A DNA stretch of 14,246 nucleotides from Blastocatellia bacterium (GTDB lineage: Bacteria; Acidobacteriota; Blastocatellia; Pyrinomonadales; Pyrinomonadaceae). Where the stretch lies: NCBI GenBank assembly GCA_003175865.1, contig PSRF01000071.1:1-14246 (forward strand), given 5' to 3'. The notes beneath the pieces were generated by a model, which searched no databases, was not told the origin of the DNA, and saw only the letters and a list, made by a program, of their open reading frames with translations. Shown piece after piece: positions 82 to 13,492 of the stretch; the first letter of the stretch is position 1; each line of letters opens with the position of its first letter. Made by a program: the position numbers and the translations under genes.

Positions 82-831
82 TCAACGTTTCACTAATACG
101 CGCAAGTCAACTGGACCACGAACTATTATTTTCGCTTTTTTACTCCGCGATGTTTTTGCTGCCCTTCTCGAATTTACGGCTTCTCTAACCTTGGTCAAGA
201 GGTGTTTGTCTCCGTGTATCTTTCCGAGACTAGCGTATTCATCAAGCCAAGTGTCAAAGTCCCTAAATCGATCCATTCGGCGAGTGCAGTCGAAACGTAT
301 GCGAGTCACCAGCTTTAGTAAACCTGCTTCGACCATTGCCTCGATGGCTCGATTCGCAGCGTAGTCCTCGTCGAAGCTCTCCTTCATGACGGTCACGAGC
401 TGATAGGTGCCGTCGTATTCGATGCCCACGTGTCGATGCACCGGTGCTGGTCGCAAGTCCAGCAGATAACCATCGCTCTTAAGAACTCGTCGTGCTTGTC
501 GAAGGGCATGGACCATGCCCTCGAGAGAAACTCATCAAAGAGACCAGGCGAACAACACCAGATCAAAGGTTCCTCTTCCGTATTCAAGACGACTCGACTT
601 GCCAACACTGAACCGAACGCGCGACGCAAAACTAGGTGGCAGTTGTCGGCGGGCCAAATCAATCAGGCGTGCATTTGGTTCGATGGCTTCGACTTGTGCA
701 CCTAATCGTGCGAGGCGTCGGGTCACGCGTCCCTTACCACAACCGATCTCGAGTACCTTCTTACCGGGCCAATCAGTGACTTGTCTGAGTGCCTTTATTT
801 CGTTTTGCTCGCGATCAACTATTAATGACAT
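82..831 (-). CDS. Class I SAM-dependent methyltransferase with two tandem in-frame UGA codons (candidate selenoprotein, or pseudogene)
   Basis: Rossmann-fold methyltransferase, 249 codon positions if both UGAs are decoded, a normal length for the family. Motif I VLEIGCGKGR is at residues 26-35, the acidic residue after strand 2 is E51 in EAIEPN, and motif IV FDLVLFAWSL is at 89-98. Codons 99 and 100 are both UGA (537-532). The same frame then continues with VSLEGMVHALRQARRVLKSD, the helix and strand expected right after motif IV, so nothing is missing and there is no frameshift. The ATG at 831 has an AAAGGA sequence 8 bases upstream. The internal ATG at 516 has no ribosome binding site and would give only half a fold. 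Substrate unknown. Either the UGAs are recoded (selenocysteine suggested by the following stem-loop) or this is a recently dead gene. The methyltransferase assignment is firm; the state of the gene is not. Confidence 0.8.
499..524 (-). promoter_or_regulatory. SECIS-like stem-loop directly after the tandem UGA
   Basis: On the mRNA strand TCGA-GGGCATG pairs with CATGCCC-T-TCGA: 11 base pairs, one bulged U, and a 3-base loop GUC. The loop starts 18 bases after the second UGA and 21 after the first. As I recall the bacterial SECIS consensus, it asks for a stem-loop within the coding region about 16-37 bases from UGA to loop, with a short loop containing G in its first two positions; this structure fits. 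The hairpin overlaps codons for a conserved methyltransferase helix, so it could be partly coincidental. Confidence 0.45.
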
Positions 832-4335: not shown

Positions 4336-4435
4336 GTGCTGGGAGCGCAGGCGTCCTCGCCTGCCAAAGTCTGGCGTCAGGTTAACCTTAATTGAAACCA
4401 ACCGATGCAGGCGAGGACGCCTGCGCTCCCAGCAC
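4336..4435. repeat. GCAGGCG palindromic repeat, inverted pair
   Basis: Two perfect 29-bp inverted arms (4336-4364 and 4407-4435), each containing the hairpin GCAGGCG-AGGA-CGCCTGC and the tail GCTCCCAGCAC, separated by 42 bp. It resembles the BIME arrangement of REP sequences. The right arm touches the stop codon of the response-regulator gene (4436-4438), so the transcript would fold into a large hairpin right after that gene, possibly limiting read-through into the permease or protecting the upstream 3' end. Confidence 0.9.
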
Positions 4436-6629: not shown

Positions 6630-6795
6630 CCCTTTAGTACGACCTTGGGATCAAGGCTCAAGCTCTTCTGTCGGACCGCGTACGTCTCGTGCGCCAACTT
6701 TCCATAAACGGCCTTTGTGATGATTGAAGCGCACGAGACGTACGCGGTCCGACAGAAGAGCTTGAATGGTTCAGTCGCGAGGGCGTACTAAAGGG
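6630..6795. repeat. MITE-like inverted-pair element (copies D and E)
   Basis: A 166-bp element bounded by CCCTTTAGTACG and CGTACTAAAGGG. The 35-bp cores (6660-6694 and 6729-6763) are perfect inverted copies of each other and match copies A and B, separated by 34 bp. It lies between the glycosidase-like gene and the kinase gene. Its right terminal repeat overlaps the end of the glycosidase-like reading frame and provides the TAG stop codon (6790-6788). No target-site duplication is evident. Confidence 0.88.
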
Positions 6796-13403: not shown

Positions 13404-13492
13404 GTGCTGGGAGCGCAGGCGTCCTCGCCTTCTTGTTCCGTTGAAAGCTCTTGCAATGTAACTAGCAGGCGAGGACGCCTGCGCTCCCAGCA
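13404..13492. repeat. GCAGGCG palindromic repeat, inverted pair
   Basis: Arms at 13404-13432 and 13465-13492, with one mismatch (CCTTC for CCTGC) in the left arm and a 32-bp spacer. It is the same family as 4336-4435 and 1280-1307. It lies 51 bp downstream of the M24 peptidase gene and could form a large transcript-end hairpin. Confidence 0.9.

Follow-up and report, generated by a model that had tools for sequence, protein, structure and literature searches.

Two adjacent in-frame UGA codons and a conserved hairpin predict tandem selenocysteines in a bacterial methyltransferase family

Introduction

The window analyzed in this study is a stretch of 14,246 nucleotides, positions 1 to 14,246 of contig PSRF01000071.1 of a Blastocatellia bacterium. 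Near its left end lies a methyltransferase gene whose reading frame contains two directly adjacent UGA codons, and the locus therefore raises the question of whether the gene is broken or whether both codons are translated, and as which residue. An initial annotation of this DNA had proposed a selenoprotein methyltransferase with adjacent selenocysteines (Sec). We investigated this proposal by comparing the gene, its relatives, the hairpin that follows the UGA codons, and the selenocysteine machinery of the genomes that carry the gene.

Results

Two UGA codons within one methyltransferase reading frame

We translated the minus-strand frame from position 831 to position 82. The only internal stops were codons 99 (window 537-535) and 100 (534-532), both TGA, and codon 250 was the closing TGA. 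The translation thus bore out the annotated presence of two neighbouring in-frame UGAs in an otherwise intact methyltransferase gene. The features of the gene are as follows.

82..831, minus strand: gene of a class I SAM-dependent methyltransferase, with 249 codons before the terminal TGA, read through codons 99-100 (from the predicted structure and relatives in 52 other distinct loci)
532..537, minus strand: two adjacent in-frame UGA codons, 99 and 100, at which Sec-Sec is proposed; stop-free homologs have Cys-Cys in the aligned positions
82..84, minus strand: terminal TGA of the methyltransferase gene; UGA also serves as a stop here

The Pfam domain Methyltransf_25 ran across both stops (residues 26-121, E 1.6e-17), in agreement with the earlier claim that both halves of the protein lie in one frame. 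The upstream half alone matched this model at E 1.3e-12, and no match to it at E <= 0.001 was found for the downstream half alone. An AlphaFold model with Cys written for Sec (pLDDT 94.8, pTM 0.91) predicted that both halves form one well-ordered fold. The Rossmann-like fold and the glycine-rich SAM motif that define class I SAM-dependent methyltransferases were both found, and the nearest solved structures were methyltransferases with varied substrates. The predicted structure places residues 99-100 between strand beta-4 (89-95) and the helix at 103-116, in the post-beta-4 loop, which in this fold lines the methyl-transfer site. Scans of the window found no tRNA with ARAGORN and no Rfam match at gathering thresholds.

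Relatives of the protein and the residues at the site

A protein search returned 115 relatives of the window protein. Most of these (91 of 115) are short C-terminal proteins of 137-156 aa that are confined to the post-UGA part (the window's own is one of them), and 9 further matches have this part fused to an extra domain. Judging from the protein records, database entries of approximately 140 residues are probably fragments left by gene callers that halted at the UGAs. An additional C-terminal domain of approximately 110 residues was observed in P0100, P0101, P0104-P0107, and P0110-P0112; in P0100, the one scanned, this domain had no Pfam or NCBIfam match. Three weak matches were left out of the alignment, and 11 other aligned relatives carry Cys-Cys at the site.

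The relative P0002, which is 64% identical to the window protein over its whole length, is called with Trp-Trp at the site. This entry would be in keeping with a genome-wide reassignment of UGA to Trp, Gly, or Cys, and it is also what calling a gene with TGA as Trp would give. However, the window gene itself ends in TGA, TGA closes 15 of the 51 family genes with a known end, the aligned residues are Cys and neither Trp nor Gly, and a reassigned codon would not need the hairpin found downstream. Genome-wide recoding is contradicted by this normal use of TGA as a stop, and we regard it as extremely improbable.

A scan of GTDB representative genomes yielded 25 loci, 24 of which are family members and one of which (L031) is unrelated. 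In this first locus set, with the window's own gene included, 22 of 25 had TGA-TGA; L008 had TGT-TGA and L011 TGC-TGA (both titled KSB1), and L014 (titled Proteobacteria) had TGA-TGT. Whole-genome profile searches (A4) were run at E <= 1e-25 with up to seven candidates scored per genome, so that stop-free copies may be missed. In the window's own phylum, these searches found the gene in 6 of 396 genomes (including its own and G070), all with two TGA codons. For the class to which the Anaerolineae genome G009 belongs, the count was 46 of 396 genomes and 48 copies, 40 with two TGA codons and 8 with one. We took 35 loci from the profile searches (30 TGA-TGA, 3 TGA-TGC, and 2 TGA-TGT), of which 7 repeat earlier loci.

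Among the 53 distinct loci, 45 carry TGA-TGA (UU), 6 carry TGA-Cys (UC), and 2 carry Cys-TGA (CU); in each of the eight mixed loci, one of the two codons is TGA and its neighbour is TGT or TGC. The initial annotation had named a conserved UGA-UGA in other genomes as decisive, and the pair was found in this large share of the loci. Its suggestion that some relatives have Cys-Cys after the WSL motif was also right, since columns 99 and 100 held Cys or UGA only in 28 of 28 aligned rows, including 10 stop-free proteins that all have Cys-Cys. The family thus displays the hallmark of bacterial selenoproteins, a conserved in-frame UGA that is exchangeable with Cys.

We computed a tree with the two site columns masked. 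The state of the pair changed at least 11 times on this tree, six times at position 1 and nine times at position 2. The window gene fell within a clade with 100/100 support that comprises seven rows from Armatimonadota, Chloroflexota, Acidobacteriota, and KSB1, and this mixture of phyla suggests horizontal transfer of the methyltransferase gene. The record titles of the carriers name Chloroflexi, Acidobacteria, Armatimonadetes, KSB1, ANGP1, and Proteobacteria. Viral contigs yielded no relative in a scan, and plasmid tblastn with the window protein (34 records) or L014 (22 records) returned matches that were all below 60% identity, none with 80% query coverage. Two genomes carried two copies of the gene: on contig C16 of G599 the copies lie approximately 5 kb apart start to start with one TGA each, and in G822 one copy has two TGA codons and the other has one.

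Selection downstream of the UGA codons

The presence of two stops in one frame could also mean that two nonsense mutations have accumulated in a decaying methyltransferase gene. The gene was not found in 15 same-genus genomes (67-99% complete), and one relative does look decayed, namely L030 of genome G023, in which most of the N-terminal half is missing, the sequence diverges shortly past the hairpin, and the SelA match of the genome is weak. Nevertheless, the same two codons are stops in the 45 of 53 loci mentioned above, which come from several phyla. We further estimated dN/dS in pairs whose downstream halves are over 62% identical at the protein level, a choice that biases the sample to low downstream values and makes the two halves not comparable with each other; the median was 0.19 downstream of the UGAs, where none of the 67 pairs exceeded 0.40, and 0.24 upstream of them in 65 pairs. 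A decayed tail is unlikely because downstream identity was kept at dS values of 0.4 to 1.5. According to these computations, purifying selection acts on the protein after the UGAs. A pseudogene origin is thus refuted for the family as a whole by the conserved UGA-UGA and the downstream purifying selection, and with selection on the hairpin also standing against it, we consider it very unlikely for the window gene.

A conserved hairpin behind the UGA codons

The initial annotation had described an 11-bp hairpin with a GUC loop, placed correctly for a bacterial SECIS. Folding confirmed such a hairpin in the window, with one bulged U, but the part conserved across the family is a core of 7 bp and not 11. 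The two features are as follows.

504..520, minus strand: SECIS core shared across the family, a stem of 7 bp (GGGCAUG/CAUGCCC) around the loop GUC (513-511), from the alignment of 53 loci, covariation, and a re-encoding test
499..524, minus strand: extended hairpin of the window sequence, a stem of 11 bp in which one U bulges out on the 3' side, closed by a GUC loop, from folding

The loop starts 18 nt past the second UGA and 21 nt past the first. Folded alone, the window sequence gave no significant result (z -0.49; 56 of 200 shuffles folded at least as well), and it is the comparative evidence, not the single-sequence fold, that makes the hairpin decisive. From the first UGA onward, the alignment of the 53 loci is free of gaps. 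The core base-pair cells are kept in 370 of 371 cases over these loci, the exception being the top pair of L057, in which the stem has 6 bp. The loops are 3 nt long and read GUC, GUU, or GUG, with GGU in L059 and a 5-nt loop in L057. Compensatory changes affected both sides of five of the seven pairs in 14 cells; in shuffled controls the mean was 1.8 cells, and 0 of 500 shuffles reached as many pairs or cells. When the partner strand was slid along the alignment, pairing fell to 20-61%.

We then compared the observed hairpins with 2000 synonymous re-encodings that preserve the same proteins and use each gene's own codons. Complete hairpins were present in 52 of the 53 loci, whereas the re-encodings averaged 3.3 and never exceeded 11, and the protein sequence therefore fails to explain the hairpin. 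The substitutions at individual loci were as follows: in eight loci, Gly GGC and Ala GCC are replaced by Ser AGC/AGT and Ala GCT; in L086, one G-C pair has become C-G with both amino acids altered; and in L059, four of the seven pairs are replaced and all seven are still paired. The His codon in the hairpin is CAT in 50 of 50 cases, compared with 48% elsewhere in the family genes. These computations show that the RNA hairpin is under selection.

The published bSECIS model specifies a loop of 3-9 nt, a stem of 4-16 bp, a distance of 16-37 nt from the UGA, a G in the first two loop positions, and a minimum free energy of -7.5 kcal/mol or lower (PMC13188914). The family hairpin falls within these limits: G starts the loop in 53 of 53 loci, the spacings are 18 and 21 nt, and the consensus energy is -10.94 kcal/mol. 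When 44-nt stretches from 25 rows were folded singly, all gave -10.6 kcal/mol or lower. Together with its completeness and covariation, this agreement upholds the proposal of a bacterial SECIS at the expected place.

The hairpin also contains an AUG, and translation might stop at the UGA and restart there (MVHAL), yielding two proteins. The abundance of short C-terminal ORFs among the database matches is what a restart would produce, and all 20 short rows displayed begin at this same Met. However, L059 has GTC in place of this ATG and yet keeps the hairpin, uninterrupted Cys-Cys homologs exist, and the two halves are predicted as one fold. A restart would also leave the interchange of Cys and UGA unexplained, and the chance that it accounts for the locus appears very small.

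Selenocysteine machinery in the carrier genomes

The window belongs to a metagenome-assembled genome (MAG) of 436 contigs that is 62% complete. This genome encodes a full-length SelB of 639 aa (389.7 bits versus a cut-off of 242) with the SelB winged-helix and beta-barrel domains, whereas the 62%-complete assembly yielded no selA, selD, or tRNA-Sec. The initial annotation had recommended a search of the same genome for the machinery; most other carriers examined have it, and in the window's own incomplete genome SelB alone was found. Among the 15 same-genus genomes, SelA was strong in 13, present as a fragment in G025, and absent from the matches of G024 (67% complete). All 42 relatives with a completeness of at least 90% had a SelA match, which in G058 was weak (1.1e-5). 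SelA presence alone proves little because SelA is common in these lineages anyway.

Of the 23 other carriers in the first set, 21 had a strong SelA match, G023 had a weak one, and none was found in G006. The tRNA-Sec model matched 14 of 14 control genomes at E <= 0.001, five of them above its cut-off; because the model matches controls too, we counted tRNA-Sec only at 64 bits or more. By this measure, 20 of the 23 carriers had tRNA-Sec (all except G006, G007, and G010), and the anticodon was UCA in all 4 loci tested. SelB exceeded its cut-off in 10 of the 11 carriers searched (not in G006), and SelD did so in 11 of 11, with 10 of these SelD genes having an in-frame TGA of their own. In the class sample, SelA was found in 45 of 46 carriers (all except G782) versus 272 of 350 non-carriers (Fisher p 3e-4, uncorrected for kinship).

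SelB could instead deliver Cys, or a mixture of Sec and Cys, by means of a tRNA-Cys that resembles tRNA-Sec, so that Cys would occupy one or both sites. There is a precedent in a described tRNA-Cys that functions with SelB, and Cys is the alternative residue in homologs. Nevertheless, the tRNA-Sec(UCA) in the loci tested is an ordinary one and most carriers searched have selA and selD; moreover, a Cys codon would suffice for Cys without any SECIS. We therefore judge Cys insertion to be unlikely and Sec insertion to be the better reading of the UGA codons.

Genomic neighbourhood and repeats

Clustering of the neighbouring ORFs in the loci examined found no neighbour common to the whole family; once antisense ORFs and the gene itself are set aside, neighbours were shared only within clades. 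In one clade, the gene neighbours YqeB (TIGR03309), a selenium-dependent molybdenum cofactor maturation gene, in L061, L066, L068, and L078 by clustering, with confirmation by profile in L061 and L066. In L091 (40-7586; G580), an XdhA-like hydroxylase and, directly upstream, an XdhC-like factor were found beside the gene, both below the NCBIfam cut-offs. These neighbours hint at selenium-related metabolism in that clade only, which is too narrow a basis to set a function for the family.

Two repeats were observed in the window. The first, of 35-39 nt, occurs at 6-40, 930-967, 1006-1043, and 6672-6751 and flanks the methyltransferase gene; it also lies at the left end of the contig. Its 23-nt core has 60 matches in the window's own genome at two mismatches or fewer (0 for the reversed control), many of them inverted pairs that mostly lie 57-91 nt apart start to start. 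This repeat is a REP-like dispersed element, and its recurrence in the same genome supports the assignment of the contig to the bin. The second repeat, of the GGGAGCGCAGGCGTCCTCGCC type, has five matches in the window, at 1283-1303, 4341-4430, and 13409-13488, four of which form two inverted pairs with start-to-start distances of 69 and 59 nt.

Discussion

On the evidence presented here, the gene product is very probably a selenoprotein: a class I SAM-dependent methyltransferase that has adjacent Sec residues at positions 99-100, with both UGAs served by one hairpin. The conserved UGA pair, the Cys-Cys homologs, and the selected SECIS support the selenoprotein methyltransferase that had been proposed at the outset, and we infer that Sec is inserted at both codons from the single SECIS. 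In the proposed mechanism, SelB would deliver Sec-tRNA to both UGAs, and the one hairpin, lying within the coding sequence with its loop 18 and 21 nt downstream, would guide both insertions. The resulting Sec-Sec pair would sit directly after beta-4, in the loop lining the methyl-transfer site.

This arrangement resembles that of bacterial SelB/SECIS selenoproteins of the formate dehydrogenase type, in which the UGA likewise aligns with Cys of homologs and is followed at 16-37 nt by a hairpin of the bSECIS type; SelA, SelB, SelD, and tRNA-Sec are likewise found in most of the carrier genomes searched. It differs from them in having two directly adjacent UGAs and one hairpin for both. Four Sec-containing methyltransferase families, MduS (NF045649), MTase/UXPK-star (NF047649), ArsM/AhpD (NF041537), and ArsM/DUF2284 (NF041536), share a methyltransferase domain and two or three Sec residues with the present family; compared through their NCBIfam models and Table 1 of PMC13188914, they have Sec motifs of the type CxxU or UxxG and not UU. 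The four proteins that we scanned scored 22-40 bits against the NCBIfam models of Sec methyltransferases, whose cut-offs are 380-575, and the window protein therefore lies outside these families (NF047649, 32.2 versus 460 bits; NF041537, 21.7 versus 510 bits). MduS was not among the best 25 of the 30 matches of the window protein, and the distant homolog P0087 scored 35.5 against its cut-off of 380. The best NCBIfam score of the window protein was to CpaM, a corrinoid protein-associated methyltransferase (NF043040), but at 66.2 bits versus a cut-off of 180 it is not a member of that family either.

Table 1 of a 2026 review, with 119 prokaryotic selenoprotein families and subfamilies, lists no UU motif (PMC13188914). 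In the open-licence papers searched and this table, we found no bacterial family with tandem Sec, and the sole tandem-Sec claim was that for the algal PDI_e, whose motif GUGUU contains consecutive Sec-Sec (PMC7539508). The algal protein shares the Sec pair with the present family, whereas it is related to protein disulfide isomerases and is not a methyltransferase. The present proteins are predicted to form a bacterial selenoprotein family with conserved adjacent Sec.

The pair's loop lines the methyl-transfer site, and for this reason we propose, tentatively, that the vicinal selenols could bind or activate a soft substrate that is then methylated; metalloids, heavy metals, and chalcogen compounds are examples of such substrates. 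The broader picture of a widespread, hitherto unrecognised selenoenzyme family in which one SECIS serves two consecutive Sec residues and a vicinal diselenol in the active site serves to bind and methylate a soft metalloid, metal, or chalcogen substrate is conceivable, although we hold it to be somewhat less probable than its opposite. Such a family would be the first in bacteria with conserved tandem Sec.

If the predicted insertion is true, the gene adds a selenoprotein family spread over all the groups named in the record titles above. It would also offer a natural system for investigating how translation escapes termination when a single SECIS and SelB have to decode two neighbouring UGAs. 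With at least 11 changes of state on the tree, the naturally occurring UU, UC, CU, and CC versions permit the contribution of each selenium to be compared.
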